From: Myxococcota bacterium | Lineage (GTDB): Bacteria; Myxococcota_C; UBA6777 | Length of the DNA: 17,439 nucleotides | Reading direction: 5' to 3' | NCBI GenBank assembly: GCA_023150835.1 | Contig: JAKLKB010000138.1 | Span: 1-17,439 of the forward strand | Part shown: positions 1-17,439 of the stretch, one piece after another | Position numbering within the stretch: position 1 is the stretch's first letter | Layout of the letters: the number at the start of each line of letters is the position of its first letter | Notes under the pieces: generated by a model | The model's input: the letters and a program-made list of their open reading frames with translations, nothing else | Databases searched by the model: none | Told to the model about the DNA's origin: nothing | Made by a program: the position numbers and the translations under genes

Positions 1-246
1 TATGGCAGGTTGCCGGACGGATAAGGCGAGGGCTGTGTTGTGTTGGGCGAGGTTGAAGCCACCTCGTCTGCTATGGCGGACGACAGCAAGACATCGGCTT
101 GTTTTCCGACCGCCATGTTGAAGTAAGTCAGGCAGGCAATCGCTGACCGTTCAGGGCATGGAACGCTATACTTGGGAATCCCCCACCACAACCTTTGAGA
201 CCTTGCGCAAGCAAGTCTCTTGGTTTGGTGGAGGGAGGATGTCAAA
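1..246. other. Left-edge region with no assignable gene
   Basis: These bases lie upstream of the point where acyl-CoA synthetase homology begins. The plus frame leading into the synthetase has stops at about 22, 130 and 195, and no frame gives the missing N-terminal domain. On the minus strand a frame stays open from about 240 to the left edge and has an ATG at 116; it reads M-A-V-G-K-Q-A-D-V-L-L-S-S and then becomes Ser/Thr/Pro-rich. I do not recognise it. It could be the 5' part of a gene running off the window or chance. The 11-mer cccaccacaac occurs here (182-192) and again inside the synthetase (284-294). Confidence 0.3.
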
Positions 247-2114: not shown

Positions 2115-2123
2115 AACTTCCTC

Positions 2124-2567
2124 TCAACGAACAGGAAAAGACGGATCCAACAGCTTAAAGGGGATGGGAAGTAGATCTGCGATGCGCACAGCACGCCCTA
2201 AACCGTTGGTGACGACCCATGCGTCGGGCGCGAGTTCAGCGATCCATTGCAAACATCCACCGCAAGGCATGGTATAGCCAACCAAAGGGCGGCCTGTTTC
2301 GTCGCGCAGCGCGTCAAGGCAGAAGATCGCGATACCGTCGATGTGTTGGACTCCGTGCATCTTGGCGTGTGATAGCGCAACCCGCTCGGCACAGATCCCG
2401 AGATTACTCGAAGCGTTCTCCACGTTGGCCCCGTGATAGATCTGGCCATTTGCGTACACGGCAGCCCCTACCCGATACTGCGAATACGGCGAGTACGAAC
2501 ATTCTTCTGCGGCTTTTTTTGCAGCTTCTAACAATTGCTCTTGAATCGGCTCCATCGTATGCTCCAT
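2124..2567 (-). CDS. cdd: Cytidine deaminase
   Basis: A pyrimidine salvage enzyme converting cytidine and deoxycytidine to uridine and deoxyuridine. The zinc-site signatures are intact: C-A-E (Cys59 ligand, Glu61 proton shuttle) and P-C-G-G-C (Cys102 and Cys105 ligands). The N-terminal stretch S-P-Y-S-Q-Y-R-V-G-A-A-V is typical of small homotetrameric CDAs, and 147 residues is normal for the family. The open frame continues upstream to 2666, but that part overlaps a candidate promoter and has no family similarity. I chose ATG at 2567, which has GGGAG six bases upstream; ATG at 2555 also has a GGAG six bases upstream and would give 143 residues. The gene follows parE on the same strand after a 311-base gap, so it is probably transcribed separately. 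Confidence 0.92.
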   Translation of the reverse strand: MEHTMEPIQEQLLEAAKKAAEECSYSPYSQYRVGAAVYANGQIYHGANVENASSNLGICAERVALSHAKMHGVQHIDGIAIFCLDALRDETGRPLVGYTMPCGGCLQWIAELAPDAWVVTNGLGRAVRIADLLPIPFKLLDPSFPVR

Positions 2568-2656
2568 CCAACACTCCCACAACGGCGACTCTCCCACACG
2601 GATCCATCGCACCGCCAAGGCAGACCACCCCCTCCACGAAGGGGAAAAGGGGACGT

Positions 2657-2685
2657 AGCATACCACACGCTTTTTTCAGACCCAA
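2657..2685 (-). promoter_or_regulatory. Candidate sigma70-type promoter of cdd
   Basis: On the minus strand a TTGGGT box (2680-2685) is separated by exactly 17 bases from TATGCT (2657-2662), which is preceded by TGG, an extended -10 element. Transcription would begin about 80 bases before the cdd start. The -35 box matches consensus only in TTG, so this is a candidate by pattern only. Confidence 0.35.
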
Positions 2686-2783
2686 GAAGAATAGGATGGA
2701 CCGCTCCATAAAAACCCCCGTGTTCGCGGCATTTCAAGCGGCAGAGTCGTCTGTTTGAAAACGCCTGATCACTCCGCCGATAC

Positions 2784-2819
2784 GGGGTCAAGGGGTCCGC
2801 GACCCCTTGCAGGGCGTGG
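2784..2819 (+). repeat. Intergenic palindromic repeat, copy 1 (REP-like)
   Basis: The core is a perfect hairpin, CAAGGGGTC-cgc-GACCCCTTG (2789-2809), flanked by GGGGT on the left and CAGGGCGTGG on the right. A second copy at 7335-7370 on the opposite strand matches at 29 of 36 positions. No T-run follows the stem on either strand, so it is unlikely to be a simple intrinsic terminator. Confidence 0.65.
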
Positions 2820-2878
2820 TACCTCGCCCCACAAAACCAACCCCAAACAAGTAATTCCTGTCCAGAGAAAACAGGGCG

Positions 2879-4792
2879 CTAGATCGCCACGTCCACTTCG
2901 TCGATCTCATAGGCGCGTTCTTTGATGAATTCGCCGCGAAAGCGGGCATCTTTACCCATCAGGTTTTCAAACAAGGCGTTGGTTTGGAGTTCGTCATCGA
3001 CAGAGACGCGAAGTAGCGTGCGTCTTCGCGGATCGAGCGTGGTTTGGCGAAGGATCTCGGGCATCATCTCTCCGAGGCCCTTAAAGCGTTGGATATCGAT
3101 CTTGGCATCGGGCGGGGCTTGCGACACCAGCCAGTCGCGTTGAGCGTCATCCAGCACCCAATGCACTTGCTTGTTGATCTCGATCCGATAGAGCGGAGGC
3201 TGGGCGATATACACATGGCCTTGATGCAGCAGTGTGGTCATGTGCCGATAAAAGAACGTCAGCAACAAAGTTGCGATGTGATGGCCGTCTGCGTCTGCAT
3301 CCATCAGCAAGATCACTTTGTGATACCGCAGATCTTCGAGACGAAAATGCTGGCCGACCCCGCATCCAAGGGCTTGCACGATATCGTTGAGTTCCTTGTT
3401 TTCGATCACCTTCTTCAGATCGGCATTTTCGGTGTTCATCACTTTTCCACGCAAGGGCAGGATGGCTTGGGTTTTGCGGTCGCGGCCCATCTTTGCGGAA
3501 CCACCGGCGGAATCGCCCTCAACGATAAAAAGCTCGCACTTGCTTGGATCGGACTCGGCGCAATCCGCGAGTTTTCCGGGCAGACTCAGCCGACGGGTGG
3601 GGCTTTGACGGCGAACCATCTGCGAGGCGGTGCGGGTGGCTTCACGGGCGCGTGCAGCCATCGAGATCCGCGCCACGATAGCGCGTGCGCTGGTGCTGTT
3701 TTCATTCAACCACTGCTCAAATGCCGAACGGGCGATGCCTTCGACAAGGGGTTGAATATCGACGTTGTTCAGGCGTTCTTTGGTTTGCCCTTGGAACTGT
3801 GGATCGGAGATATAGACGCTCAGCAAAGCGACCAAGCCTTCGCGGATATCTTCGGGGGTAAAGTTCGTCCCCTTGGGTTGGAGCTTGTGGAGGTTGACAT
3901 ATTGGCGGATCGCCTTGACAAGGGCGTTTTTGAGTCCGTTTTCATGCGTACCGCCTTGTTTGGTGGGGATGCCGTTGACAAAGCTGTGGAATTGCTCGTC
4001 CGTCCCTTCGGTCCAACACAGCGCGATCTCCATACGAAGCTCGCCGTCTCCTCGATAAGCAAAGATCCCTTCGTGCGAAGGTTTGCGCTCTTTTCGACCG
4101 ATCAAATGTTGCAAAAAGTCTTCGATCCCGCCCTCATGATGGAAGCGCTGTTCTTCGCCAGAAGCTTTATCGTGCCACAAGATCACCAAGCCGCGATGGA
4201 GATACGAGCGGATATTCAAGCGTTCGCGGATCAACAACGGATCCATCACAACGCCATCGTGAAAGATCTCAGGATCCGCATGAAAGGTAACTTCTGTGCC
4301 TGTCCCACGTAGATTTTTCTCGACCACCCGCAGATCGCCCTGCGCCAAGCCACGCGAAAAATGCTGTTCGTGCATCTTTCCATCGCGCTTGACACGCACA
4401 CACATCTTGTCCGAAAGCGCGTTGACCACCGAGATCCCAACGCCATGCAATCCCCCCGAATGGATGTAGTTTTGGCTACCAAACTTTCCGCCCGAGTGAA
4501 GGGTGCAAAGGATTAATTCGAGTGCAGGTTTTTTGTATTGTGGATGGATATCCACGGGGATACCGCGCCCGTTGTCTTGAACGGAGATCGTCTCACCATC
4601 GGTATGTAGCGTCACCTCGATGCGATCGGCGTGTCCATTGATCGCTTCATCCACCGCGTTGTCGACGATCTCCCAAAGCAGGTGGTGTAGGCCCGTTTTG
4701 TGTACGCCGCCGATGTACATACTCGGTCGCTTGCGTACAGCCTCCAAACCTTCGAGAACGACGATATCTTTTGCGCTATACGAGCTGCTCAT
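2879..4792 (-). CDS. parE: Type IIA DNA topoisomerase subunit B, probably topoisomerase IV ParE
   Basis: ATPase subunit of an A2B2 type II topoisomerase that decatenates or relaxes DNA. GHKL ATPase motifs are [17 protein letters not shown] and G-G-L-H-G-V-G, with the Q-T-K lysine loop in the transducer domain. TOPRIM motifs are E-G-D-S-A-G-G, P-L-R-G-K and D-A-D-A-D-G-H-H, and K-G-L-G-E-M lies near the C-terminus. At 637 residues it is of the short type, without the large TOPRIM insertion of many proteobacterial GyrB proteins. The start chosen is ATG at 4792, whose ATGA overlaps the TGA of the upstream subunit A gene and which has GGAG nine bases upstream; an in-frame GTG at 4807 would add five residues. 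The overlap implies coupled translation and matched subunit levels. GyrB is the alternative, disfavoured by the features of its partner. Confidence 0.85.
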
Positions 4793-7272
4793 ACTTTTTC
4801 TCTCCACGCCCCATCAAACAACGCATGGTTTGCCGAGGAAGCCGACGAAGCGGGGGCAAGAAGATCTTCGGCAAAGGCATCGTGGCTTTGTTCGCGGCCA
4901 AACGAAGGCACCACCAAAGGCGGCGGGATCACGCGGGTCCATCCTTTGACGCGCTCTTTGATGCCGCGCCCATCGCGTTTTGCGATCAGATCAGGGATCG
5001 GTGTCAAAAAGGCTTCTTTGCCGCCTTGGATCTCCAAACGCAAGCCTTCGTCGGGGCGACGGCTGACTTCGCATGCAAACAACAGATCTCCCTCGTCCAT
5101 CCGCAACAAACGAACGCCCTTGCCCGCCGCGCCAAGGAACTTGACCTCTTCGAGAGGGAACATCAGGATGCGGGCTTGTTCAGATACCAAGATCAAGATC
5201 CCTTCGTTGCGCACAAGTCGCACCGCCAAGACCTGATCACCGCGTTCGAGGCGCGTATAACGCCGCCCATTTTTGTTTGAGGGTTCCACAAAAGGCTCCA
5301 AACTCAAACGCGAACCCTGCCCTTGTTGTGTGACGACCAACAGATGACTGTCGGGCATCGCCTCTTCGCCTTTGTGGGCGGGAGTGCGGATATCTCCGCA
5401 AAAGCGGGGATCAAGTGCGACGGCTCCGACCACGCGCTCGCCATCTTTGAACTTAAAGAGGCTTTGCAGCGGGGTTCCATAACCCGTCGTGGCTTGGACA
5501 TCCCAGATCCGCAGCGTGTAAGCCGTTCCATAGTTCGTAAAGAAACAGATGGATTCTTTCGTACTACCCGGGAAGATGCCCGATATCTCGTCGCTTTCAC
5601 GGACACGGATCGTTGCGATATCATTGATGGTGCGGATGCGCTTGATCCAACCGTCGCGGCTGAGGATCACGTGGCTGTCTTCATCTTGGATAAAGGCGTC
5701 GGGATCATACTCGACGCTCTTGTCTTCGCCGACGATACGGGTCTTTCGCTTGTCAGCGATGCGTTCACGGACAGCGACCATCTCTTCGCGCATGGTGGCG
5801 ATCATGCGTTCGCGGCTTGCGAGGATGGCTTCGATCTCAGCTGCTTTTTCGGCAAGTTGGCGGAGTTCATCGAGGATGGTGTTGATCTCAAGGCGCGAGA
5901 TCCGATACAGGCGGGTTTCAAGGATGGCTTCGGTTTGTTCGTCGCTGAGGCGAAAGTGTTTTTGAAGCTGATAACCTGCATCACGCCGCCCGTCTGCGTC
6001 GCGGATGATCTTAATAGCTCGATCGAGGTCGTTGAAGACGATCCGAAAACCGTCGAGGATGTGGATGCGCCGTTGGAGGCGTTCAAGCTCGCAACGCAGC
6101 CGTCGTTCGAGGACTTCGAGACGAAAAGCCATGAATTGTTCGAGCATCTCGCGCAAGGACAAGCGAGCAGGGGCGCAGACAAGGGGGTTGGGCGTGGGGA
6201 CGAGGACGGTCATGTTGACAGCGAAACGCTGCGAAAGTGGCGTATGTTTGTAGAGGTACGCCATGATCATCTCGGGATCTTGTTTGGCTTTGATCTCCAA
6301 GACGATGCGGATATCGACGGTGGATTCGTCACGGATATCGAGCAACATCGGGAGTTTTTTAGAGACGATCACGTCTGCGATCTTTTCAACGATCAAGGAT
6401 TTGTCGACGTTGTAGGGGATCGATGTGATGATGATGTGATCGATCTTCTTGTTTTCTTCGACTTCTTCGCGTTTCCATTCACCGCGCACGATCAGATTGC
6501 CGCTACCTTCTTGGTAGATCGCTTCCATCTCTTCGCGGGTGATGAGGATCTCACCGCCTGTGGGAAAGTCTGGGCCTTTGATCTTTTTCATCAGGTGACG
6601 GACGGTGCAATCAGGGTGATCGATCAGATGCAGCAAAGCATCGAGGACTTCGGTGGGGTTGTGGGGGGGGATGTTGGTGGCCATCCCGACGGCGATCCCC
6701 GAACAGCCGTTGACAAGAAGCTGAGGAAAACGCGCAGGCAAGACGACGGGTTCTTCTTGGGTTCCGTCGAAGTTGGGGCGCATCGTCACGGTTTCGAGCT
6801 TGAGTTCGTCCAAAAGCTCCAATGCAGCGGCCTGAAGGCGTGCTTCGGAATAACGCATCGCTGCGGCGCGATCCCCATCGATCGAACCAAAGTTGCCGTA
6901 TCCATCGACCAAAGGAACGCGCAGAACAAACGATTGGGCCATCCGCACCATCGCATCATAGATCGCGGTGTCACCGTGTGGATGGTACTTTCCCATCACG
7001 CTTCCAACGATGGTTGCGGACTTTCGGAACTTGGTGGAAGGAAGCAGCTTGAGATCATGGAACATCGAGAACAAGATGCGCCGTTGCACAGGCTTCAAAC
7101 CATCGCGAACATCGGGCAAGGCGCGGCTTGTCACAACACTCAACGCATAATTCAAATAGCGTTTCGACGTTTCTTCTTGGAGGGAAACGACTTTTACGCT
7201 GGGTTGCTCATATTCCATATCGAGCGCTAGGGCATCACCCGAAGGCGCCGATCTTCGACGCTTTGCAGTCAA
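4789..7272 (-). CDS. parC: Type IIA DNA topoisomerase subunit A, probably topoisomerase IV ParC (TTG start)
   Basis: DNA-cleaving subunit of topoisomerase IV or gyrase, 827 residues. The winged-helix region carries the catalytic Tyr141 preceded by Arg140 ([10 protein letters not shown]). The quinolone-determining region reads [12 protein letters not shown], with Thr102 and Asp106 at the positions of E. coli GyrA Ser83 and Asp87. Tower and coiled-coil segments follow ([10 protein letters not shown] region), then a degenerate C-terminal beta-pinwheel. The GyrA box (QRRGGKG-like) that gyrase needs for wrapping is absent: the corresponding site near residues 545-557 reads I-N-D-I-A-T-I-R-V. This and the adjacent subunit B favour ParC over GyrA. 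Translation appears to start at TTG (7272), four bases after a perfect AAAGGAGG; the first in-frame ATG (7218) has no Shine-Dalgarno. The gene is co-directional with ung, after a 150-base gap. Confidence 0.86.
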
Positions 7273-7276
7273 GAGA

Positions 7277-7284
7277 CCTCCTTT
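7277..7284 (-). promoter_or_regulatory. Perfect Shine-Dalgarno fixing the TTG start of parC
   Basis: The minus strand reads AAAGGAGG, complementary to the 3' end of 16S rRNA, followed by tctc and then TTG. The match decides in favour of TTG at 7272 over the ATG 54 bases downstream, which lacks any purine-rich site. Confidence 0.7.
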
Positions 7285-7334
7285 GGATCACGATAAAATG
7301 GGCGAATTGGGTTCTGTTTTGTGGGATTGGAACC

Positions 7335-7370
7335 CCACACCCCGCAAGGGATCTCGGCTCCCTTGGCCCC
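7335..7370 (-). repeat. Intergenic palindromic repeat, copy 2 (REP-like)
   Basis: On the minus strand the core is CAAGGGAGC-cga-GATCCCTTG, flanked by GGGGC and CGGGGTGTGG. Relative to copy 1 (2784-2819), one G-C pair of the stem has become A-T, a compensatory change, while one further stem pair is lost. It lies between ung and parC, in the presumed parC leader or promoter region. Confidence 0.6.
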
Positions 7371-7422
7371 GTATTTGGCGAAGAGAGAACAGGTCTTTCA
7401 ACTATTCGATCAGCACAGGGGT

Positions 7423-8106
7423 TTAGAGGTTGGGGATCTGCCAATCGATCGGGGTTTTTCCAGCGTCTCGGAGAGCATGGTTGATCGTCGAGAAGGGCTT
7501 GCTTCCGAAGAAGCCGTTGCTTGCGGACAAAGGCGACGGGTGGACGCCCTCAATCACGGTATGTTGGGGCGAGGTCACAAGAGCGGCTTTTTTCTTGGCG
7601 TATCCGCCCCACAGCAAAAAGACCACGCGGTCGGCCTTTTGATTGACTTTGTCGATCACGGCATCCAAAAACTTTTCCCATCCTTTGGACTTGTGCGAGT
7701 TGGGTTCGCTATCGCGGACGGTCAGGACGGCGTTGAGCATCAAGACGCCCTGTTGGGCCCAAGGCATCAAGTAGCCGTTGTTGGGGACATGACAACCGAG
7801 ATCGTCTTGGAGTTCTTTGTAGATATTTTTCAAAGAGGGAGGGGGTGTGATGCCGGGAGAGACGGAGAAACAAAGACCGTGTGCTTGCTTGGGTTGGTGG
7901 TAGGGATCTTGGCCGAGCAAAAAGACTTTGATGTTGTTGTAGGGCGTGGCATCGAGGGCAGCAAAGATCTGTTCGCGTGGAGGGTAGATGGTCTGGGTGT
8001 TGTATTCTTCTTCGACAAAGGCTTCAAGCGGCTTCCAGTACTTTTTGGAGAACTCATCAGCGAGAAGTGCGCGCCAATCGGCAGGGATCAAGTCTTGTAG
8101 GCTCAT
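7423..8106 (-). CDS. ung: Uracil-DNA glycosylase, family 1
   Basis: Excises uracil from DNA to start base excision repair. Family 1 hallmarks are present: G-Q-D-P-Y-H at 65-70 with the water-activating Asp67, the uracil-pocket region H-G-L-C-F-S-V, L-L-N-A-V-L-T-V-type strand (L-M-L-N-A-V-L-T-V), and the minor-groove-intercalating loop H-P-S-P-L-S-A with its catalytic His. The length of 227 residues matches the family. Three starts are possible (8136, 8118, 8106). I chose ATG at 8106 because GGAG lies six bases upstream and the product then starts at the conserved N-terminus; the upstream ones lack a Shine-Dalgarno. It is transcribed divergently from the ADP-ribosylglycohydrolase gene and lies upstream of parC on the same strand. 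With cdd nearby it forms a loose uracil/pyrimidine-handling neighbourhood, though not obviously an operon. Confidence 0.95.
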   Translation of the reverse strand: MSLQDLIPADWRALLADEFSKKYWKPLEAFVEEEYNTQTIYPPREQIFAALDATPYNNIKVFLLGQDPYHQPKQAHGLCFSVSPGITPPPSLKNIYKELQDDLGCHVPNNGYLMPWAQQGVLMLNAVLTVRDSEPNSHKSKGWEKFLDAVIDKVNQKADRVVFLLWGGYAKKKAALVTSPQHTVIEGVHPSPLSASNGFFGSKPFSTINHALRDAGKTPIDWQIPNL

Positions 8107-8240
8107 ATCGATCTCCATCGTCAGGATTTGGTTCACAAAAGAAGCCGAGATAGCGTAGCATGGTCAAATGCCAGATCGCGGCACGATCCTACAGCGCAGA
8201 TCAACGGACGATCCACACCTGCAAAAAAAAGGAGCCTCGA

Positions 8241-9293
8241 ATGTCTTTCACAGTCAACCAAGAAACACAAGACCGCGCCCTTGGGGCATTGCTTGGTGCT
8301 TGCGTGGGTGACGCAGCAGGAGCCGTCTTAGAGTTTTTAGGCCACAAACCAACCCACGCCGAAGTCCAACACGCGCTGACGATGCCGGGCGGAGGCGTGT
8401 GGGGCGTGAGTACTGGGCAGATCACTGACGACGGGGAGTTGATGCTCTGCCTCGCCCAAGCCTTGGAACAAGCACCGCATTTTTCGTTGGACACCATCGC
8501 GCAGATGTACGTGCGGTGGTACGAATCAAAGCCCTTTGATATCGGCAACACAACCAGCGCAGCGTTGGGGGCTTTGCGTCATCCACACTTTGCGAGCGTC
8601 GCGCAAGAACAAGGGATCGCTGCGGCGATCAGCGAATCTGCGGCCTCACAAAGCATGGGTTCCAAAGCCAACGGTGGCTTGATGCGTTGTATGCCGCTTG
8701 GGGTGTGGGGGTATGCGCTCGAAGAAAACACTTTGGCGAACTGCGCCGTCCAAGACACCGCACTGACGCACCCTCACCCCACATGCCAGTTCGCAACGGC
8801 GGTGTACTGTATCGCCTTGGCGCATCTTGTCCGAACACCCGACGATACAGAAGGCGCTTTTGCTTCTGCCGCCTCTTGGCTAAGCCAACAAGAACCCAGC
8901 CCCGAGATCCCAGCCTTGTACCGCGAAGCCCAACAAGAAGTCATGCGTTGGATGTATGAAGCCGCCGAAGGCAAGCTACCCGCCTTTCAGCCGATGGATG
9001 GGTTTGTGCGGATCGCTTGGACACACGCCTTCTACCACTTGCAACAACGCACCCCCTACGAAGAAGCCCTATACACGGTGCTTTTGGGCGGCGGAGATAC
9101 CGACACCAACGCTTGTATCACAGGCGGGCTTTTGGGAGCAGCCTACGGCGCACAAGCCTTACCTGTGTCCATGAAACAAGCTGTGCTGCAAAGTCCCGTC
9201 AATCCGCGTTATCCGCGTCCTGACTTCCTTCACCCTCGTCATGTCCCGCGTTATGTCGACGCGCTCTTGGCCCACGCCCCCACCTCTGTCTAA
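8241..9293 (+). CDS. ADP-ribosylglycohydrolase family protein (DraG/ARH-like)
   Basis: Enzymes of this all-helical, dinuclear-magnesium family remove ADP-ribose from proteins or hydrolyse related ADP-ribosyl compounds. The metal-binding signatures are at both ends as expected: G-D-A-A-G-A (23-28), T-D-D-G-E (62-66), and G-G-D-T-D-T-N-A (284-291, Asp286 and Asp288), followed by G-G-L-L-G-A-A-Y-G. The 350-residue length is normal. I chose ATG at 8241 because AAGGAG ends six bases before it. The longer open frame from 8160 adds 27 residues with no family similarity, across the ung-side promoter region. No signal peptide is seen, so it is cytoplasmic. No ADP-ribosyltransferase such as DraT is in the window, so the target is unknown. 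It converges on the first VWA gene, 162 bases away, with a GC-rich inverted repeat (GGGCAGCCTGCCC, 9348-9360) in the gap. Confidence 0.92.
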   Translation: MSFTVNQETQDRALGALLGACVGDAAGAVLEFLGHKPTHAEVQHALTMPGGGVWGVSTGQITDDGELMLCLAQALEQAPHFSLDTIAQMYVRWYESKPFDIGNTTSAALGALRHPHFASVAQEQGIAAAISESAASQSMGSKANGGLMRCMPLGVWGYALEENTLANCAVQDTALTHPHPTCQFATAVYCIALAHLVRTPDDTEGAFASAASWLSQQEPSPEIPALYREAQQEVMRWMYEAAEGKLPAFQPMDGFVRIAWTHAFYHLQQRTPYEEALYTVLLGGGDTDTNACITGGLLGAAYGAQALPVSMKQAVLQSPVNPRYPRPDFLHPRHVPRYVDALLAHAPTSV

Positions 9294-9455
9294 TACGATA
9301 TCCGAGTGATGTGTGATCGAAGAGTCCTGCGTAGACGCCCTGTTATCGGGCAGCCTGCCCCTACGCCTTTACGATCAGGATTTCGTACCACCCCACTTCT
9401 CTCTCGTCCCACGTCCCCCTCGCATCTCTTTGTCCACGCCCTTACATCGCCTTTG

Positions 9456-12107
9456 TTAGGCGACCTTGCGGCGGCGTGTGACCCACAACAGCGCAAACAA
9501 CGTGAGCAACCACAACGGTGCTGTTTGCAAGGGCGAAGTCCCCTGACAACCGCAATCACCGACACCATAACGGTCGGGAAGTGTACCGCTGGCTTCGGTG
9601 TTTCCACCGACTTCTTTTTGACCGTTTTCGCCGTCGTTTTGGCTGGCGTTGTTTTCTATGTCGGTGTCCATGATGACGGGTTCAGAAGATCCGCCGTCGG
9701 GGTTGTTGCCTTCGGGTTGGATCTCATCCCAGTTTGGATTTTCGGGCGGAGGCGTGGTTCCGCCGTAGCACTGGCCTTCTTTGCAGACGTTGCCTTCTGG
9801 GCAAACGATATTGATACAGGGATCACCCACGCATTTTCCGTCTTCGCAATAGCGACCGCTATCGCACTTGACGCCAGCACAGGGATGTTGGGAGGGAGGA
9901 ATGCACTTTCCATCTTTGCAAAGCTCGCCATCCGCGCAAGTGACGGCTTCACAGCCGCTTGGTGTGACGCACTTTCCGTCTTTGCAAGAGTCGCCTTTGG
10001 GGCAAGTGATGTTGGCGCATGTATCGACGCATTGGCCTTCTTTGCAGTACTGGGTGCCTTGACATTTTACATCTTTACAGGGATCGGCGACACATTGACC
10101 ATTTCGGCAGCTTTGACCTGCGGGGCAGCCAAGCTGATAACAGTCTTTGGTGCCTTTGTCTTCGCACTTGCCTTTGACGCAGACTTGATCGGCCTTGCAG
10201 GTGACGTTGGTGCAAGCGTCGAAGCATTGGCCATCTTTGCAATACTGATCGTTGCCGCACTTGACACGAGAGCACGGATTTTCGCGACAGACACCGTCTT
10301 GGCAGTAATACCCTCCCGGACATTCTGTCGTGCATTTCTTGTAGCAGATGCCTTGGATGCAGACATCGCATTGGGCGGTGGGTGTGTAGTTGTCCACCAC
10401 ACCGTCGCAATCGTCGTCTTTGTTGTTGCAGACTTCGGTTTGAGGCTGTTGAGCGTTGCAAGCGCCCCATTGACCGTTGCTACAGGTCTCGATGCCTGAG
10501 CCGCACTTGCTTTGACAAGCACGCGTCACGCCGTTGTCGATCATCCCGTCGCAATCGTTGTCTTTGCCATCACACACTTCGGTGGTCGGTTTTGCAGCGT
10601 TGCAATTCACCCATTGTCCGGCGCTACAGGTTTCTTCGCCCTCACCGCAAGCCGTTAAACACTTGCGTTTGAGACCTTCGTCGATTTGACCGTTGCAATC
10701 GTTGTCTTTGTTGTCGCAGGTTTCGGGCTGTGGTTGTTGAGCGTTGCAGTTCTCCCATTTACCGGCATTACAGACCTCTTCGCCTGAGCCACAAGCACTT
10801 CGACAAGCACGCTTCAAACCGTTGTCGATCTTGCCATCGCAATCTTCGTCTTTGTTGTCGCAGGTTTCGGGCTTGGGTTGGGGAGCGTTGCAATTCACCC
10901 ATTGTCCGGCACTACAGGTCTCAACGCCTGCCCCGCAGGCCGAATTGCAATTTCGGCTGAGGCCGTCATCGATCTGACCGTTGCAGTCGTCATCTTTGTT
11001 GTTGCAGGTTTCAGGTTGGGGTTGTTGGGCGTTGCAATTTCCCCATTGGCCGGCACTACAGGCTTGAGTCCCCGGGCCGCAAGGCCCCGCACAAGAACGA
11101 CTCAGGCCGTCGTCGATCTTGCCGTTGCAATCGTTGTCTTTGTTGTCGCAGGTTTCGGGCTTGGGTTGAGGAGCGGTGCAGTTCACCCATTGTCCGGCGC
11201 TACAAGTCTCGATACCTGCCCCGCAGGCGGTGTTGCAATTTCGGCTGAGGCCATTGTCGATCTGACCGTTGCAATCATCGTCTTTGTTGTTGCAGATCTC
11301 GGGTTGGGGTTGTTGGGCCGCAGAGCAAGCGCCCCATTGACCGGCAGAACAGACCTGCGTCCCTGTACCGCAAGGCCCCGTACAAGAACGACTGAGGCCG
11401 TTGTCGATCCTGCCGTCACAATCGTCGTCGAGGTTGTTGCAAACTTCGGCAGATGCGGCGTTTGCGATGGCAGCCATCGCAGCGTTCAGTTCGCTAGAGT
11501 TGTCGGCTTGGTAATACTTGCGCGTCCCGGTCAATGCGGTACCGCCGCTGGTCGCCATGTTGTTGAGGCAAGTCGCATCGACGCCTGTCCCAAAGCCGAT
11601 CACATAGGTCAAGATGCCTTTGGCATTGAGCGAGGCGACCTGTGTTTGTGCGCAAGAGGCCGTTCCGTCCGTAAGAAACATCACAGCGCGCTTGCGTGTT
11701 TTCACGGGATCGCTTGCGGCAACGGTAGTCAGATGTTGATCCGCCGTTGTGATCGCAGCGATCAAGTTGGTGCCACCGCTTGGGGAGAGCGCCGCCAGCG
11801 AAGCGCGCAATTGTGAGCCACAGTTTGCGCCGTCAGCGACGCATTGCGGGATGCCATAACGGACGGTTGCGGTACTATCGAAGGTTTCGAGTCCAAAACG
11901 CAGCTTGCCGCTGTATTGTGTGGTGATGGTGTTCACGGCATTGACCGCTGCTGTCCAGTTGGCTCCGCCCATACTGCACGAACGATCCACCACGATCAAC
12001 AGATCGGGGGTTTCGCAAGCCGCGTGCGCTTGGGCAGATAGCATACACCAGAGAAACAGGGACAGCCCAACCGCCCCCAAGAGATGAATCCGTCTTTTGT
12101 GTTCCAT
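9456..12107 (-). CDS. Secreted VWA-domain protein with eight MopE-type metal-binding repeats, Cys-rich repeats and a MYXO-CTERM-like tail
   Basis: An 883-residue exported protein. Residues 1-30 form a signal peptide (K-R-R, hydrophobic core, A-H-A cleavage). A von Willebrand factor A domain (about 34-215) has a complete MIDAS: D-R-S-C-S (41-45), Thr113 and Asp147 in L-T-D-G. From 221 there are eight tandem units of about 48 residues whose core, D-D-D-C-D-G-x-I-D, resembles an EF-hand-type loop plus Cys and matches the putative metal-binding motif of MopE-like proteins. Then come about eight Cys-rich units (pattern C-x4-C-x5-C-x-x-G-x-C), an acidic Asn/Gly/Glu linker, and the tail C-G-C (852-854), hydrophobic helix, R-R-R-K. 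That tail resembles the MYXO-CTERM surface-sorting signal. ATG at 12107 has GGAGG five bases upstream, unlike the alternative starts at 12116 and 12128. The likely role is a surface adhesin or metal-binding structural protein; the ligand is unknown. Confidence 0.88.
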   Translation of the reverse strand: MEHKRRIHLLGAVGLSLFLWCMLSAQAHAACETPDLLIVVDRSCSMGGANWTAAVNAVNTITTQYSGKLRFGLETFDSTATVRYGIPQCVADGANCGSQLRASLAALSPSGGTNLIAAITTADQHLTTVAASDPVKTRKRAVMFLTDGTASCAQTQVASLNAKGILTYVIGFGTGVDATCLNNMATSGGTALTGTRKYYQADNSSELNAAMAAIANAASAEVCNNLDDDCDGRIDNGLSRSCTGPCGTGTQVCSAGQWGACSAAQQPQPEICNNKDDDCNGQIDNGLSRNCNTACGAGIETCSAGQWVNCTAPQPKPETCDNKDNDCNGKIDDGLSRSCAGPCGPGTQACSAGQWGNCNAQQPQPETCNNKDDDCNGQIDDGLSRNCNSACGAGVETCSAGQWVNCNAPQPKPETCDNKDEDCDGKIDNGLKRACRSACGSGEEVCNAGKWENCNAQQPQPETCDNKDNDCNGQIDEGLKRKCLTACGEGEETCSAGQWVNCNAAKPTTEVCDGKDNDCDGMIDNGVTRACQSKCGSGIETCSNGQWGACNAQQPQTEVCNNKDDDCDGVVDNYTPTAQCDVCIQGICYKKCTTECPGGYYCQDGVCRENPCSRVKCGNDQYCKDGQCFDACTNVTCKADQVCVKGKCEDKGTKDCYQLGCPAGQSCRNGQCVADPCKDVKCQGTQYCKEGQCVDTCANITCPKGDSCKDGKCVTPSGCEAVTCADGELCKDGKCIPPSQHPCAGVKCDSGRYCEDGKCVGDPCINIVCPEGNVCKEGQCYGGTTPPPENPNWDEIQPEGNNPDGGSSEPVIMDTDIENNASQNDGENGQKEVGGNTEASGTLPDRYGVGDCGCQGTSPLQTAPLWLLTLFALLWVTRRRKVA
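10437..11447 (-). repeat. Seven full tandem units encoding the MopE-type repeat, with alternating A/B higher-order order
   Basis: Units are 147, then 6 x 144 bases; an eighth, shortened unit follows (below 10437). Units 1 and 3 share G-P-C-G-x-G-T-Q and S-A-G-Q-W-G (type A). Units 2 and 4 share A-C-G-A-G-[IV]-E-T-C and Q-W-V-N-C (type B). Units 1-4 therefore look like a duplicated 2-unit (about 288-base) block, also visible at DNA level. Units 5-7 are more diverged. Confidence 0.85.
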
Positions 12108-12262
12108 GATCGCCTCCATGATCAACATTTTTTGATAGACACCTTATGACTATACGACAAAGCACTTTTCACCCGATATAAAAATTTCGATCCGCACACA
12201 AAAAAGTGACCGTTCCACAGTACCTTGCGGTTGTGGAGAGCACAGACAAAAGCGCAACCAGC
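12108..12262 (-). promoter_or_regulatory. AT-rich upstream region of the first VWA gene
   Basis: Between the terminator of the preceding gene and the start codon lie about 155 AT-rich bases that must carry the promoter if the terminator is efficient. A TATAGT box (minus strand, 12149-12154) matches the -10 consensus at five of six positions, but no convincing -35 box is at the right distance. The region is called from context, not from a defined promoter. Confidence 0.35.
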
Positions 12263-12300
12263 AAAAAAAAGCCCCACCACAAAAAGCTCGGGGGTGGGGC
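12263..12300 (-). terminator. Intrinsic terminator after the second VWA gene
   Basis: On the minus strand the stem GCCCCACC (12300-12293) pairs perfectly with GGTGGGGC (12278-12271) and is followed directly by eight T (12270-12263). It lies about 97 bases past the stop of the upstream VWA gene, so the two paralogous genes are probably not one operon. Confidence 0.88.
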
Positions 12301-12330
12301 TGGATGACGAAGATCTCCAAAGCAAGCAGG

Positions 12331-12389
12331 CCATCGGCATCGAGCGATGATCACGCGGACCATCAGCATCAAGCGACGATCACAGGGGA
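12331..12389. repeat. Two imperfect 29-base tandem units downstream of the second VWA gene
   Basis: The units begin ccatcggcatcgagcga (12331) and ccatcagcatcaagcga (12360) and both continue into gatcac; over the first 24 bases they differ at three positions. They lie between the stop codon at 12397 and the terminator, so they fall in the 3' untranslated part of the transcript. Confidence 0.6.
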
Positions 12390-12396
12390 GCGTCGA

Positions 12397-14394
12397 CTAG
12401 GCTTGTTGGCGACGACGCACCAAGACGGGCCACAACAAGAAGAGCAACAGCAGCGAAAGCGGAAGCGTTGTATTGTCGTGGCTAGAACACACACAACCCG
12501 TTCCACCACGGCGGTTGTTGTTGTTCGGATCGTCTGCGTTGTTCGGGTCATCCGAATTGTTCGGATTGTTGGGGTCGTCAGGGTTTTTGGGATTGTTGGG
12601 ATCATCGGGATTCGGGTTATTCGGATCATCGGGATTCGGATTGGGTCCGCCATCACCGGGATTTGGCGTGCCGTCGGGTTTGGGGATGTTGGAGCCATAG
12701 CAGTTTCCGTTAAAGCAGGTCTGTCCTTGAGGACAGTCGGCCTTAAAGCAAGGATCATCGAGGCATTGGCCGATTTCGCACTTTTGACCCGAAGGACAAC
12801 CGCCTGCGGGACACGCCGCAGGAACTTGGCAAGCTCCAGCGCTACAGGCCTGTCCTTGGGGACATTGAACGCCCGCGCAAGGATCTTTGATACACGTTCC
12901 GTTTTCGCAGTATTCGCCGTTTGCGCATTGGACACCTTCGCAAGAGTGATGGCACTTGTTGTCGTAAGGTCGGCAGAACTGGCCCGAAGCGCATTGGATG
13001 TTGGGGCAAAGGTTGCGCTGGCAAACACCATTGCGGCAGATCTCATCGGCGGCACAATAGGCACCTTGCAAGGTGCAGTTGTTGGGAACGCAAGAGCCGT
13101 TCAAGCAACGTTCGCTTTCTTTGCAAGGTGTCGCACATTCACGCGGCTCACAGAAGCCGTTGTTGCAAACATATCCGCCTGCGCATTCGGTGGTGCAAGT
13201 TTTCACGCATTTTCCGTTGAGACAGACGCCATTTTGACAGACGGCTCCGTCATCGATCTTGCCGTTGCAGTTGTTGTCGAGACCGTCGCAGACTTCGGGT
13301 TGGGGCTGCGGCGCAGAGCAAGTGGTCCAGTCGCCGCGAATACACGCTTGAACGCCTTCGCCGCATGGCGTATTGCACTTGCGAGAAAGGCCCTCGTCGA
13401 TCTGACCATCGCAGTCGTCGTCTTTGCCGTTACATTCTTCGGGCTTTGCGCTGGGCGCGGTACATCCGCTCCATTTTCCAGCAACGCAAGTCTCGACACC
13501 TGCACCGCAAGCGGTCGAGCAGTTGCGCGTTAAGCCATCGTCGATCTTGCCGTTGCAATCGTTGTCTTGGTTATCGCAAACTTCGGGACCTGTAGGAACA
13601 TCCGTCGAACACTTGCTCCATTGCCCCGCAACGCACTTGCGTTTGCCTGCTCCGCACTGTCCTTGGCAGGTGTCTTCAAAGTTATCGATCACACCGTCGC
13701 AATCGTTGTCTTTGCCATCGCAGATCTCGCGGCTTGCGCCGTTTGCGATATCGTTAAGTGCTTTGAACAGGTCGTTTTGGTTGTCAGCGCGATAAAATTG
13801 TCCCGTACCACCCGCGACCGCCATCGATTGCAGCGTCCCCGCACCAACACCCGAGCCAAAACCGATCACGTAGGTCTTGACGTTGAGTTGGCTCAGCAAG
13901 TTTCGGATCGGAGGTGTAACGTCTGTACCGCAAGTGTTGGGTTCACCGTCCGTCATCAACACGACGAAACGACGGCGATCTTTGACGGGGTCAGCGGGGA
14001 TGACAGCGCTGCTGTAATGCTGGTAAGCGATATCGAGAGCGCATCGCATCGCGGTGGTTCCGGCGGGGCCAAGCGAGTTCAACACGCTGAGGCACTGCTG
14101 TGCGGTGTTTGAAGCAAGCGGCACGCGCAAAGTGGCGGCAGATTCAAAGGTAATCAGGCCAAAGCGCAGCTTTCCTGCGTACTGAGTGAGGAGGGTGCGA
14201 TACGCGCCTTGGGTTGCTGCCCAACGTGTCTGGCCGTTGGAGGTGGAGGATTGCATACTTCCTGAGTTATCGACAACAAGCAAAACGTCCGATGGTAGGC
14301 AGTTTGCGGGTTGTGCAGCAGCATGATTTGGTAGAAACAAGCTGCAACACAAACTGAAGACCCCGATCAAGGGCAACAACACTTTGCGGATCAT
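12397..14394 (-). CDS. Secreted VWA-domain protein with four MopE-type repeats, Cys-rich region, DDPNN linker and a MYXO-CTERM-like tail
   Basis: A 665-residue paralogue of the next gene downstream. The signal peptide ends near A-A-A-Q (27/28). The VWA domain (about 36-220) has a full MIDAS: D-N-S-G-S (42-46), Thr113/114 and Asp149 in M-T-D-G. Three complete 48-residue MopE-type units occupy 223-366, with a shortened fourth beginning at 367 (core D-N-N-C-N-G-K-I-D). A Cys-rich region follows to about 566, then a Pro/Asn/Asp linker (567-632) with five D-D-P-N-N units, and the tail G-C-V-C, hydrophobic helix, R-R-R-Q. The open frame extends upstream to 14574, but ATG at 14394 directly precedes the signal peptide and has cgAGGTG upstream, so I chose it. 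Export is clear; retention at the cell surface through the tail is inferred by analogy with MYXO-CTERM proteins. Confidence 0.88.
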   Translation of the reverse strand: MIRKVLLPLIGVFSLCCSLFLPNHAAAQPANCLPSDVLLVVDNSGSMQSSTSNGQTRWAATQGAYRTLLTQYAGKLRFGLITFESAATLRVPLASNTAQQCLSVLNSLGPAGTTAMRCALDIAYQHYSSAVIPADPVKDRRRFVVLMTDGEPNTCGTDVTPPIRNLLSQLNVKTYVIGFGSGVGAGTLQSMAVAGGTGQFYRADNQNDLFKALNDIANGASREICDGKDNDCDGVIDNFEDTCQGQCGAGKRKCVAGQWSKCSTDVPTGPEVCDNQDNDCNGKIDDGLTRNCSTACGAGVETCVAGKWSGCTAPSAKPEECNGKDDDCDGQIDEGLSRKCNTPCGEGVQACIRGDWTTCSAPQPQPEVCDGLDNNCNGKIDDGAVCQNGVCLNGKCVKTCTTECAGGYVCNNGFCEPRECATPCKESERCLNGSCVPNNCTLQGAYCAADEICRNGVCQRNLCPNIQCASGQFCRPYDNKCHHSCEGVQCANGEYCENGTCIKDPCAGVQCPQGQACSAGACQVPAACPAGGCPSGQKCEIGQCLDDPCFKADCPQGQTCFNGNCYGSNIPKPDGTPNPGDGGPNPNPDDPNNPNPDDPNNPKNPDDPNNPNNSDDPNNADDPNNNNRRGGTGCVCSSHDNTTLPLSLLLLFLLWPVLVRRRQQA
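12499..12696 (-). repeat. Low-complexity tandem repeat encoding the DDPNN linker
   Basis: The DNA encodes five D-D-P-N-N units separated by short variable spacers (P-N-P, P-K-N-P, P-N-N-S, A) at the end of the second VWA protein. It is a likely flexible spacer between the folded part and the membrane or sorting tail, and a likely site of length variation by slippage. Confidence 0.75.
13297..13728 (-). repeat. Three full tandem units encoding MopE-type repeats in the second VWA gene
   Basis: Three 144-base units encode residues 223-366, each starting E-[IVE]-C-[DN] and containing D-[ND]-D-C-[DN]-G-x-I-D. A fourth unit is cut short just after G-K-I-D-D-G. The period equals that in the neighbouring paralogue, but the alternating A/B pattern is not evident. 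Confidence 0.85.
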
Positions 14395-14849
14395 GAAACA
14401 CCTCGTACGGCTAAAGGATGGCGATCTTCGCGAAGATCTTTTTGGGAGAAGGGGGCGTTCCCCTGATTTCTTGACGACAGTTGAGACGCAGGCAGGATGT
14501 TGTACACAGTTGCAACGAAACAAGAACAGTGCGAAGACATCGGTTGTGTTGTGCGAGAGTAAAGACAGAGACATCTATCGCGTTGTTTGGATCAGGCCGA
14601 AAGCAAGGTCATATTCGTCAAAAACGACGTGCCTCGCCAGAATGGATCCGAACCTTAACAAAGTGCATCCTGATGGTCAAGGCAGAAAACACTTGTGAAC
14701 AAGACACATCACCGCGTTGCGGTGTGCCACAAAAAAGCAACTCTTACCTCTCCATGCGAGATCGTGGTAAGCTCCATCTTTCCAGACTCACCAAGGTTCG
14801 GATCTGTCCCGAAGAAAATCGCGATCGTCACCTCACAAAGAGCAAAAAA
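14395..14849. other. 455-base divergent intergenic region
   Basis: This region separates the second VWA gene (minus) from the MXAN_5187-like gene (plus) and should hold promoters for both. Visible structure: the perfect palindrome at 14423-14438, and a perfect 6-base hairpin CACCGC-gtt-GCGGTG (14710-14724) with no T-run on either side. An open plus frame from 14481 reads into the downstream gene, but its N-terminal 123 codons show no protein-like features. No promoter pair met my standard. Confidence 0.5.
14423..14438. promoter_or_regulatory. Perfect 16-base palindrome upstream of the second VWA gene
   Basis: The sequence GATCTTCGCGAAGATC is its own reverse complement and lies 29-44 bases before the VWA start codon. 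It could be a dimeric regulator's operator or a leader hairpin. On the plus strand it is followed by five T (partly shared with the motif), but a terminator has no obvious plus-strand gene to serve. Confidence 0.4.
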
Positions 14850-15530
14850 ATGAGCAAAGAGTTAGAAAAAGAAAAAGAATCCAAGCAACAACTCGATCGG
14901 CTCGAAAAAAACATCGAGGAGTGCCATCGGTTGTATGAACTGTACTTCATGGGCATCGAAAAGCGCGAACCTGCGCAGCTACGAGAAGTTGTGAAGCGCG
15001 AGATCGCCTTGTTGCGTACCAGCCGCAACAACCAAGCCACCTTTCGCTTCCGATTGACGAGCCTTTCCAACCGCCTCCAATCGCTGTCTCGTTATTGGGA
15101 TCGCGTCAATTATGAGCGAGAACAAGGCACCTTTCACAAGGATCGCAAACGCACCTTGCGGCGCGTCTTCAACCAAAGCGACGCCGAGCCTTCGTCTGCA
15201 GCACTCGAAGCACTCAAGCAACCCTCCCCCCAAGACAACGAAGCCACCCCACCCGACGGGGTTCCAGCCTATCCCGGAACATCACAACGCCCCGATCCAT
15301 CGCTAATCCAACAACCTCGCCTCCCCGAACAACGCATGCGCCAGATCTACGACTCTTACCTCGAAGCGCGCAGCCAATGCGGCGAAAGCACCCGCGTCAA
15401 CTACGAGGCTCTTGTCAAAACCATCGAAAGCCAGATCCCGCGCCTACAAGCCAAAGGCTACAAAGAAGTCGACTTCCAAGTCATCGTCAAAGACGGCAAA
15501 GCCGCCCTTAAACCCGTCGGAAAAACGTGA
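14850..15530 (+). CDS. MXAN_5187 C-terminal-family-like protein (coiled-coil, function unknown)
   Basis: A 226-residue, highly charged, cytoplasmic-looking protein with no signal peptide. The N-terminal half is helical and probably coiled coil (E-L-E-K-E-K-E-S-K-Q-Q-L start). It contains L-Y-F-M-G-I-E-K-R-E-P and F-R-F-R-L-T-S-L then R-Y-W-D-R-V, which I recall from the myxobacterial MXAN_5187 C-terminal domain family. A Pro-rich linker (about 115-150) separates a second conserved part: Y-L-E-A-R-S-Q-C-G-E-S-T-R and, at the end, V-D-F-Q-V-I-V-K-D-G-K-A. The start is ATG at 14850, where protein-like sequence begins, although the Shine-Dalgarno is weak (aaagag). The frame is open far upstream, so a longer form is possible. 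It is followed within 2 bases by a small secreted protein gene, so the two are probably co-transcribed. No biochemical role is known to me. Confidence 0.72.
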   Translation: MSKELEKEKESKQQLDRLEKNIEECHRLYELYFMGIEKREPAQLREVVKREIALLRTSRNNQATFRFRLTSLSNRLQSLSRYWDRVNYEREQGTFHKDRKRTLRRVFNQSDAEPSSAALEALKQPSPQDNEATPPDGVPAYPGTSQRPDPSLIQQPRLPEQRMRQIYDSYLEARSQCGESTRVNYEALVKTIESQIPRLQAKGYKEVDFQVIVKDGKAALKPVGKT

Positions 15531-15532
15531 TC

Positions 15533-16084
15533 ATGCTCACCCCGACTCTGCTTCTTCGCCGCTGCACTCGATCCCTCCGATGGTTGCACACCACTCGATT
15601 CATCGTTGCGTTGACTTTTTTTGCAGTCACTGCAAGTCCCCCTCCGATGGCTCGACTGTTTGGAGCCGCTGCAAACGCCCAACCCACCGCCCAACCCACC
15701 GCCCCTCTTCCTGAGCAACCCACGCTCGAACTGCCCAAACGCCTTCGCGGAGGAACCTGTTGGACAACCCTCCAATCTGTTCGCGAGGATCTCAAGCGTT
15801 ACCGCACCCTTAGCCCACGCCTTCAAAGCTACCAATGCGACGAAGAAGCCGAACGATGGAGCCGTTGCAAACACAACCAAACCCAAGAAGAGTGTCAAAA
15901 GGAACTCCACCAAAAGCGTTGGACGGCGTGCTTTCGCATACGGCGCAGGATGCGCATCCTCACAACACGCCTCGAAAGTTATCGCGCCATCCAAAAAAAA
16001 CAGCGATGTGGTTGGAAACTAAAACTCCCGAAAGAACGGTTTCTCCGTCAGCTTTTTGCTGCGCCCTCACCCGCCCAACGTTAA
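15533..16084 (+). CDS. Hypothetical secreted Cys-containing protein
   Basis: I do not recognise this protein of about 183 residues. It has a basic N-terminus (R-R-C-T-R, R-W-L-H-T-T-R), a hydrophobic segment F-I-V-A-L-T-F-F-A-V-T-A, and a small-residue stretch around A-A-A-N-A-Q suggesting a signal peptide with a long N-region. A Pro/Thr/Gln-rich spacer follows (repeated A-Q-P-T), then a helical basic domain with six Cys (in G-T-C-W, Y-Q-C-D, S-R-C-K, E-E-C-Q, T-A-C-F, Q-R-C-G) that could form disulfides in the periplasm. ATG at 15533 lies 2 bases after the TGA of the upstream gene; GTG at 15527 is an alternative overlapping that stop. Tight spacing implies translational coupling. A short tandem duplication (ccctcaccc...caacgtt, 16064-16082 and 16085-16099) straddles the stop codon. 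Confidence 0.65.
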   Translation: MLTPTLLLRRCTRSLRWLHTTRFIVALTFFAVTASPPPMARLFGAAANAQPTAQPTAPLPEQPTLELPKRLRGGTCWTTLQSVREDLKRYRTLSPRLQSYQCDEEAERWSRCKHNQTQEECQKELHQKRWTACFRIRRRMRILTTRLESYRAIQKKQRCGWKLKLPKERFLRQLFAAPSPAQR

Positions 16085-16135
16085 CCCTCACCCAACGTTT
16101 TCCCTTACCCCACACATTTTTTTGCCCCGACGGTA

Positions 16136-16693
16136 TCAGACGCCAAGGCGCTTTTTGAGATACTCTGCGGTATATTCGCCAAGTTTGCGCACCGTCTCGC
16201 GGATGCGCTTTTGCAGATCGGCGAAGTCGCCGTCGGGCTTGGTTTCAGCCGTCACTTCGATGATATCGCGGGTTGCGTTGCCTTGCAGCAAGCGCACAGA
16301 CAACAAGATCTTACAAGGTTTTCCAGCACCCCCCGGGGTCATCTCTTTGATTTGGGGGCGGATGATGAACATATCTGCGGTTTCTTGGGAGACATAGATG
16401 TTGACAGCCGGAGCCGCCGCCTTCATAGCATCGCGGTAAATCTTCGCCAAAAACTCTTTCTCTGTTTCCCACTTGGCCTTAAAATCGGGGCCTTGGCTGG
16501 TCACAAAGTCCGCCTCAAAACCGTTGTCCACTTTCATCTCGCTAAAGATCAGCTTTTTCGCCATCAAACGCGTGCTTGCCGTAAAGGGGTTCGGATTGGT
16601 TTGGCTCACCACTTTGACCGCAGAACCACAACCCGTCGCCGTCAACAGCAAGCCTGCAAGCCACAAAAGATTCCAAAACTTCTGCATACGCAT
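16136..16693 (-). CDS. Putative lipoprotein, DUF4410-like
   Basis: A 185-residue protein with a lipoprotein signal peptide: M-R-M-Q-K-F, hydrophobic stretch L-L-W-L-A-G-L-L-L, and lipobox T-A-T-G-C with Cys at about 22. The mature part has about 160 residues with a mixed alpha/beta look, including D-M-F-I-I-R-P and the strand I-L-L-S-V-R-L-L-Q-G-N-A, and ends in an amphipathic helix. It resembles DUF4410-type lipoproteins in overall layout, but I am not sure of the family. ATG at 16693 has GGAG seven bases upstream; GTG at 16696 and ATG at 16687 are less well placed. It converges on the small secreted protein gene, 51 bases away, with no terminator seen between them. It should be anchored in the inner or outer membrane facing the periplasm. 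Confidence 0.75.
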   Translation of the reverse strand: MRMQKFWNLLWLAGLLLTATGCGSAVKVVSQTNPNPFTASTRLMAKKLIFSEMKVDNGFEADFVTSQGPDFKAKWETEKEFLAKIYRDAMKAAAPAVNIYVSQETADMFIIRPQIKEMTPGGAGKPCKILLSVRLLQGNATRDIIEVTAETKPDGDFADLQKRIRETVRKLGEYTAEYLKKRLGV

Positions 16694-16711
16694 CACTTTT
16701 CTCCTACGCTT

Positions 16712-16733
16712 GAATAAAGGCGGGACACCCGCC
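16712..16733 (-). terminator. Terminator-like hairpin in the leader of the lipoprotein gene
   Basis: On the minus strand GGCGGG-tgt-CCCGCC (16733-16719) is followed by TTTATTC. The hairpin ends about 25 bases before the lipoprotein start codon on the same strand. It could terminate transcription from the right, act as an attenuator, or be a leader stem-loop. The T-run is short and interrupted. Confidence 0.4.
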
Positions 16734-16926
16734 AGCCAGACCCGAAAACACAGGCCAACTTCATCACATAAAGCAAGGCAGCGCTCTTGGCAAAAAAGAT
16801 GCCGAGTGCCCCCTCAAAACAACCGCACGTCTTGTAGCCCAAATCCCCCCCTCTCCACAAGCGCGGCACACCAAGATATTCTTCTTCAAAGGCTGATACA
16901 GCGCAAAGATCGAGTGTGTTGCGCGT

Positions 16927-17020
16927 CGCCGAGCCTCCCTCGTCGCAGAGCCTCCCCTGTCGCCGAGCCTCCCTCGTCGCAGAGCCTCCCCTGTCGCCGA
17001 GCCTCCCCCGTCGCAGAAAC
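16927..17020. repeat. 17-base minisatellite, alternating two unit types
   Basis: Units at 16927, 16944, 16961, 16978 and 16995, with a partial one at 17012. Odd units are cgccgagcctccctcgt (the last has cccgt) and even units are cgcagagcctcccctgt, so the higher-order unit is 34 bases. Neither 17 nor 34 is a multiple of three, arguing against a coding repeat. Confidence 0.9.
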
Positions 17021-17049
17021 AATTCGCGATTCTCTCAAAATGAGAAGGA

Positions 17050-17439
17050 TTATTCGCGACTCACTCGGCAATAACGTTTCATCTCGCAAGTGTATTGCGT
17101 GACTTTACCGCGATATACACAAACAGAAGTTTTCCATCGTTTGTTGTTGCCCCAGATAAAGACGATGGGGTGTCGTCCTGCGGGCAAGCTCTTGGCTTCG
17201 CTGAGGTTGGGGACTTCAAAAGAGTCCGTTGGATCGGCTGCGGGATAAGCTTGTCCTTTTTCGGGGGTGTCAAGGATCAACTTTCCGCGCCCACCGCGAG
17301 GGCAACCATTGTTTCGCGCAACGGGGCGAGGTGTCGGTCGTTTTGTAGAGCGAACCGTTGGACGGGGGCGAACAGGCTCAGTTCTTCTTTCGATGGTAGG
17401 TGGCGTGGTGGGGGGCTGTGTGCGCGGCTCTTCGGGCCG
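17050..17439 (-). CDS. C-terminal part of a Pro/Arg-rich protein, PEGA-like end (partial, runs off the right edge)
   Basis: The frame is open from the right edge to a TAA at 17050, giving 129 residues of a larger protein. The first 45 or so residues are a linker rich in Pro, Arg and Thr (P-P-T-T-P-P-T, R-P-R-P-T-V-R). A small domain follows: G-C-P-R-G-G-R-G-K-L-I-L-D-T-P, then L-P-A-G-R-H-P-I-V-F-I-W and V-C-V-Y-R-G-K-V-T-Q-Y-T-C. That order, a beta strand with Pro followed by a 'LPAG-x-H' turn and two strands, resembles PEGA-type domains that end many myxobacterial Ser/Thr kinases, but the match is loose. Four Cys (one in G-C-P-R, then C-V-Y, Y-T-C and R-Y-C) could form disulfides. The N-terminal function is outside the window. 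Confidence 0.6.
   Translation of the reverse strand, partial: RPEEPRTQPPTTPPTIERRTEPVRPRPTVRSTKRPTPRPVARNNGCPRGGRGKLILDTPEKGQAYPAADPTDSFEVPNLSEAKSLPAGRHPIVFIWGNNKRWKTSVCVYRGKVTQYTCEMKRYCRVSRE

Follow-up and report, generated by a model that had tools for sequence, protein, structure and literature searches.

Two adjoining genes in this DNA encode large proteins with the same unusual order of domains, and the question they raise is what such proteins do and whether their pairing carries a meaning of its own. The window, which is the whole stretch of DNA analysed here, comprises bases 1-17439 of a 35-kb contig from a genome of 7.56 Mb (G000). On its minus strand genes A and B follow each other head to tail, and each product runs from a signal peptide through a VWA domain, MopE units, an array of Cys-rich units and a spacer to a tail of Cys, hydrophobic and Arg residues. 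This common order, reported in an initial annotation of the locus, is borne out by the open reading frames together with Pfam and motif evidence, as follows.

9456-12128, minus strand: gene A, the long member (ORF call, 890 aa from the first ATG)
12021-12107, minus strand: signal peptide of A, MEHKRRIHLLGAVGLSLFLWCMLSAQAHA (by eye from the translation)
11484-12005, minus strand: VWA domain of A, MIDAS DRSCS (PF00092, residues 42-215, E 3.6e-15)
10359-11453, minus strand: eight MopE-type units of A, about 48 residues each, with a DxDxDGxxD loop and a CGxG..C..GxW..C half
9762-10358, minus strand: Cys-rich array of A, mostly C-x4-C-x5-C-x4-C units
9561-9761, minus strand: acidic low-complexity spacer of A (dN/dS 0.40)
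9468-9560, minus strand: MYXO-CTERM tail of A, CGCQ...LLTLFALLWVTRRRKVA (TIGR03901, 24.4 bits, cut-off 20)
12262-12300, minus strand: terminator-like hairpin followed by T8 between B and A (read in the sequence; folds to -18.3 kcal/mol)
12397-14394, minus strand: gene B, the short member (ORF call, 665 aa)
14314-14394, minus strand: signal peptide of B, MIRKVLLPLIGVFSLCCSLFLPNHAAA (by eye from the translation)
13768-14289, minus strand: VWA domain of B, MIDAS DNSGS (PF00092, residues 36-209, E 1.1e-18)
13195-13734, minus strand: four MopE-type units of B at 48-residue spacing
12694-13194, minus strand: Cys-rich array of B
12499-12693, minus strand: PNPDDPNN-type low-complexity spacer of B (low model confidence, pLDDT about 30-42)
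12409-12498, minus strand: MYXO-CTERM-like tail of B, CVCSS...LLLLFLLWPVLVRRRQQA (TIGR03901, 17.8 bits, cut-off 20)

The likelier start of A is position 12107 (residue 8), with GGAGG read by eye just upstream; both signal peptides were assigned by eye only.

We conclude, with a probability of roughly 0.55, that A and B are surface adhesins exported by a type II secretion system (T2SS) and processed by MrtP, with a VWA head on a stalk stabilised by Ca2+ and disulfides. The two paralogues would be exported by Sec and kept in the inner membrane by the MYXO-CTERM tail. MrtP, a glutamic intramembrane protease, would cut the tail, presumably once the tail Cys has been lipidated, and the type II system would then carry the proteins to the surface of the cell, where the VWA head with its MIDAS metal site would be displayed at the tip of a long stalk, built of disulfide-linked Cys units next to the membrane and of 48-residue MopE units further out, whose DxDxDGxxD loops would bind Ca2+, stiffening the rod. 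The probable target of the head is a conserved ligand, which may be a polysaccharide, a matrix protein or the surface of prey or a partner, and a function in adhesion or matrix is plausible from the sequence.

The VWA domains of both proteins match PF00092 and have the MIDAS residues in place, as had been claimed. Of the MIDAS residues (DxSxS, T, D), the D, S, S and later D do not vary among 17 aligned relatives, and the T is conserved in at least 90% of them. Both the profile and the predicted fold assign the domain to the VWA class (structure comparison Z about 20-23), and among solved structures the best match is the vWFA of the LapA adhesin (PDB 9no5; sequence E 1.3e-9, fold E 8.5e-13 with Foldseek), which supports an adhesin-type VWA. 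Good structural scores were also obtained against TRAP, TEM8, SpaC, Mfa5 and other adhesion VWAs, and BatB, TFIIH and other VWAs score well too. Non-adhesive roles are also known for VWA domains. The last VWA helix leads directly into the first MopE unit, and the VWA profile boundary and the MopE loop are one residue apart in the relatives examined. In the AF2 model of B (mean pLDDT 77.7) the VWA domain is confident (pLDDT about 85-97 per block) and the repeats are moderately confident, the alignments behind the structure predictions being shallow (17-18 rows). Both A and B are under strong purifying selection: between G000 and G001, dN/dS is 0.085 for A, 0.047 for B (computed without its tail) and 0.047 for a third paralogue, C, and for the VWA heads it is 0.058, 0.025 and 0.024, respectively.

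The MIDAS loop of A, DRSCS (window 11973-11987, minus strand; residues 48-52), contains a Cys that is common to six A-clade rows from three genera and is replaced by Gly in one G004 member. Since a single Cys in the VWA domain matters for Pseudomonas aeruginosa PilY1 (PMC13190605), this residue beside the metal site may, by analogy, have a redox or disulfide function.

That A and B form a dedicated two-member system is one possible reading of their pairing. The family compared here consists of G000 and four other genomes (G001-G004) from three genera; these five are the only genomes in their phylum group, so that the taxonomy used sets the host genome apart from the phylum of Polyangium. In a tree of VWA domains the relatives of A (8 rows, 100/99) and of B (9 rows, 98/92) form separate clades, each with all three genera, and C forms another with a relative from G002 (3 rows, 100/99). 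A and B adjoin in four of the five genomes, namely G000, G002, G004 and, across a contig break, G001, in which one contig ends inside B and another begins with the B tail followed by A. In G003, B keeps its neighbours and the relatives of A lie elsewhere. A long and a short member have thus stayed next to each other within the family, where homologues that are never adjacent could have been found. As a general rule the combination of long and short member was rejected, because it applies to this family only and tandem pairs elsewhere have other length ratios. Tandem VWA-MopE clusters occur in other myxobacterial genomes as well, and separate tandem pairs were seen in the metagenome-assembled genomes HKST-UBA02, ACE_MYX3 and SRR2107183_bin.94, the latter two of which share a conserved pair of their own. 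In G003 (L026:10846-14813) one A relative stands beside a truncated fragment ending in the same 30-odd tail residues, which suggests that the tail was recently duplicated or copied by gene conversion.

By our own arithmetic, random placement of seven such genes over 7.56 Mb predicts about 0.02 pairs lying within 3 kb, so the tandem placement is not due to chance. Tandem duplication followed by retention explains the placement without a functional partnership, and we regard it as an even bet that the pair is an old tandem duplication kept by low rearrangement in which each protein acts alone, a reading compatible with the adhesin interpretation. It is favoured by the terminator-like hairpin between the two genes, which makes co-transcription of B and A doubtful from the sequence, and which a simple promoter and terminator scan missed because of its long loop (the same scan found no promoter). 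It is also favoured by paralogue C (888 aa; G000:C79:23124-25790, beyond the window), about 9 kb from B, by the synteny of the flanking genes and by the separate location of the A relatives in G003. However, the adjacency is kept in four of five genomes and two genera even though A and B belong to separate clades, and separate tandem clusters exist in other genomes. The claim of a system with a long and a short member therefore holds as regards adjacency within the family, and is weak as regards a self-contained system of two, given the hairpin, the nearby C and the many VWA-MopE junctions in each genome.

The neighbouring genes do not point to adhesion. One side carries genes for an AMP-binding protein, dienelactone hydrolase, cytidine deaminase, gyrB, gyrA, uracil-DNA glycosylase and ADP-ribosylglycohydrolase, and the other a protein with an MXAN_5187_C domain, two small proteins, a Ser/Thr kinase and a TPR protein, then a Kelch/FGE protein whose start resembles that of a lipoprotein, followed by paralogue C and a BMP-type protein. 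The open reading frame with the MXAN_5187 C-terminal domain (14481-15530, plus strand) keeps its syntenic place next to B in each of the five family genomes.

A and B are members of a family with about 5-18 VWA-MopE proteins in each genome: at a profile E of 1e-40 or better, a hand count gave approximately 7, 5, 13, 15 and 18 junctions in G000, G001, G002, G003 and G004. In the Polyangium phylum such junctions were found in 9 of 140 sampled genomes, with at most three in each, although fewer candidates per genome were scored in that run and the contrast is therefore indicative. The MopE repeats as such are frequent in both groups, and a MopE expansion special to the lineage of the host genome was rejected, as equal numbers are reached in some other genomes of the Polyangium phylum. 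With 150 of its 456 candidates scored, G000 has, by hand count, at least about 70 open frames that match PF11617 at E 0.001 or better, and each of 18 sampled genomes, partly picked for having hits, gave between 16 and 150 or more matches. A record titled Candidatus Peregrinibacteria (L063) also has a MopE-repeat match, for which binning error or transfer is possible.

The Cys-rich units described in the initial annotation are present in both proteins, and in 21 copies taken from A, B and C their four Cys never vary. Pfam returned only DUF7107 for these arrays, below its cut-off, and profile comparison a weak match to PDB 9pgb (E 5.6e-4). Their spacing is mostly 4-5-4, compared with C-X4-C-X5-C-X8-C in the CREMP modules of the eggshell membrane and C-X4-C-X5-C-X6-10-C in the spore-coat protein SP75 of Dictyostelium (PMC3068167). 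This resemblance, together with the match to 9pgb and the many MopE proteins per genome, would suit structural coat or matrix proteins whose disulfide-rich stalk works as a cross-linked layer, with the VWA domain doing no more than docking to neighbours. We consider this unlikely, at around one chance in several, since the Cys matches are short and weak and a simple pattern finds the MIDAS residues kept in 46 of 64 VWA domains (the misses are mostly partial hits to the domain), which indicates that a binding head is under selection.

Modelled alone, the repeat stalk (349 residues) is predicted to consist of beta hairpins, with a mean pLDDT of 83.3, no residue below 50 and a pTM of 0.53. Fold searches with this model retrieved no PDB structure with an E of 0.001 or lower, nothing in VIA that reached a Z of 2 among 350 chains, and three weak viral matches; for a predicted structure, the absence of a solved relative does not show a new fold. 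A bolder scheme, which we think improbable, would make A and B an obligate hetero-pair in which two heads on unequal stalks, of a fold lacking a solved relative, form one calcium-dependent contact organelle that is ancient here and was rebuilt independently elsewhere.

The adhesin interpretation draws further on the tails and on the sorting genes. In the six-frame search that gave the scores listed above, the tail of A exceeds the TIGR03901 cut-off (18.1 bits in the whole-protein hmmscan) and that of B falls just under the curated value, while the near-identical tail of the B orthologue in G001 reaches 21.0 bits. By hand count, the host genome has 30 MYXO-CTERM tails over the cut-off. It also encodes MrtP (NF040674, 268 bits against a cut-off of 250; Mrt_core, 131 against 100) with the motifs EEFFYR (EE...R) and HAASN (H...N). 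MrtP is over the cut-off in four of the five family genomes, the host included, and was not found at that level in G001, which is 86% complete. The type II secretin GspD (TIGR02517), the one subunit from which the presence of a T2SS was judged, is over the cut-off in all five. About 4 kb downstream of the MrtP gene, a 1231-aa open frame carries a MYXO-CTERM tail (G000:C16:10834-11829 and 15716-15802). These genes and the many tails support the secretion and surface sorting that had been proposed. The pathway was demonstrated experimentally for MrtX and TraA of Myxococcus xanthus, and no enzyme is known that lipidates the tail Cys (PMC11980579); by analogy we infer that A and B are sorted by MrtP and the T2SS. 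Polymorphic kin-recognition receptors in the manner of TraA would likewise be surface-anchored, as predicted here, with MYXO-CTERM tails and multiple paralogues, but we hold this to be very improbable because the VWA heads are strongly conserved rather than diversified between two genomes of the genus (dN/dS 0.06, 0.025 and 0.024).

The tandem 48-residue units also stand as annotated. Both proteins exceed the PF11617 (Cu-binding_MopE) cut-off of 27 bits (107 for A, 43.7 for B), with eight DxDxDGxxD loops in A at spacings of 49, 48, 48, 48, 48, 48 and 48 and four in B at 48, 48 and 48. The unit consensus is PExC[DN][GN]xD[DN]DC[DN]GxIDxGLxRxCxxxCGxGxxxCxxGxWxxC, with 13 invariant positions over 15 units. 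A PDB profile search with these units returned only xanthusin-1 (E 0.66), which is of no use. Although the repeats match a family named after MopE, a copper- or other transition-metal-binding surface protein of that kind is the least probable reading of all and copper binding was rejected as unsupported, since the repeat regions of A and B contain no His, the high-affinity site of MopE consists of His132, His203 and kynurenine-130 (PMC3423442), and the loop is of the Dx[DN]xDG calcium type that occurs in many folds (PMC3123361). Calcium, which stabilised MopE during purification (PMC3423442), is judged from the motif the likelier ligand.

Myxosortase-sorted VWA proteins are a known kind; the version with a MopE and Cys-rich stalk, and its conserved pairing, appear to be undescribed, and a literature search for VWA plus MopE found nothing relevant. 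A and B offer concrete cargo, outside the model organism, for the recently described myxosortase pathway in its MrtP type, and a case in which VWA adhesins on Ca2+/disulfide stalks can be tested. The name of PF11617 refers to copper, but A and B suggest that the motif repeated in such stalks is a calcium element, a reading that would affect the annotation of very many proteins.

Several known systems share parts of this design. LapA-type adhesins (PDB 9no5) have a VWA head with a MIDAS in a large surface adhesin plan, as does, by its description, CglB, a VWA adhesin of M. xanthus gliding (as cited in PMC13104615); the stalk and sorting of A and B are unlike those of LapA, and a Pfam scan of both proteins at E 0.1 detected no RTX or other LapA parts. 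PilY1 likewise combines a VWA domain with a Dx[DN]xDGxxD Ca2+ loop (PMC13190605), whereas A and B carry many tandem loops in a stalk and the Pfam scan found no PilY1 beta-propeller in them. With MopE of Methylococcus capsulatus they share an acidic DxDxDG-type motif and, as predicted here, a secreted or surface location, but they lack the copper-site His and have the motif as a tandem, disulfide-rich unit. CREMP and SP75 are extracellular proteins with tandem arrays that begin C-x4-C-x5-C, while the final spacing in A and B is mostly 4 rather than 6-10, and homology is unproven. In the TraA/MrtX system (PMC11980579), as here, an N-terminal signal peptide is combined with a Cys/TM/Arg tail, and the genome encodes a CPBP myxosortase and GspD. 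The enzyme in G000 is of the MrtP rather than the MrtX type, the cargo is of the VWA-MopE-Cys form, and the host belongs, in the taxonomy used, to a phylum group of five genomes apart from that of Polyangium.
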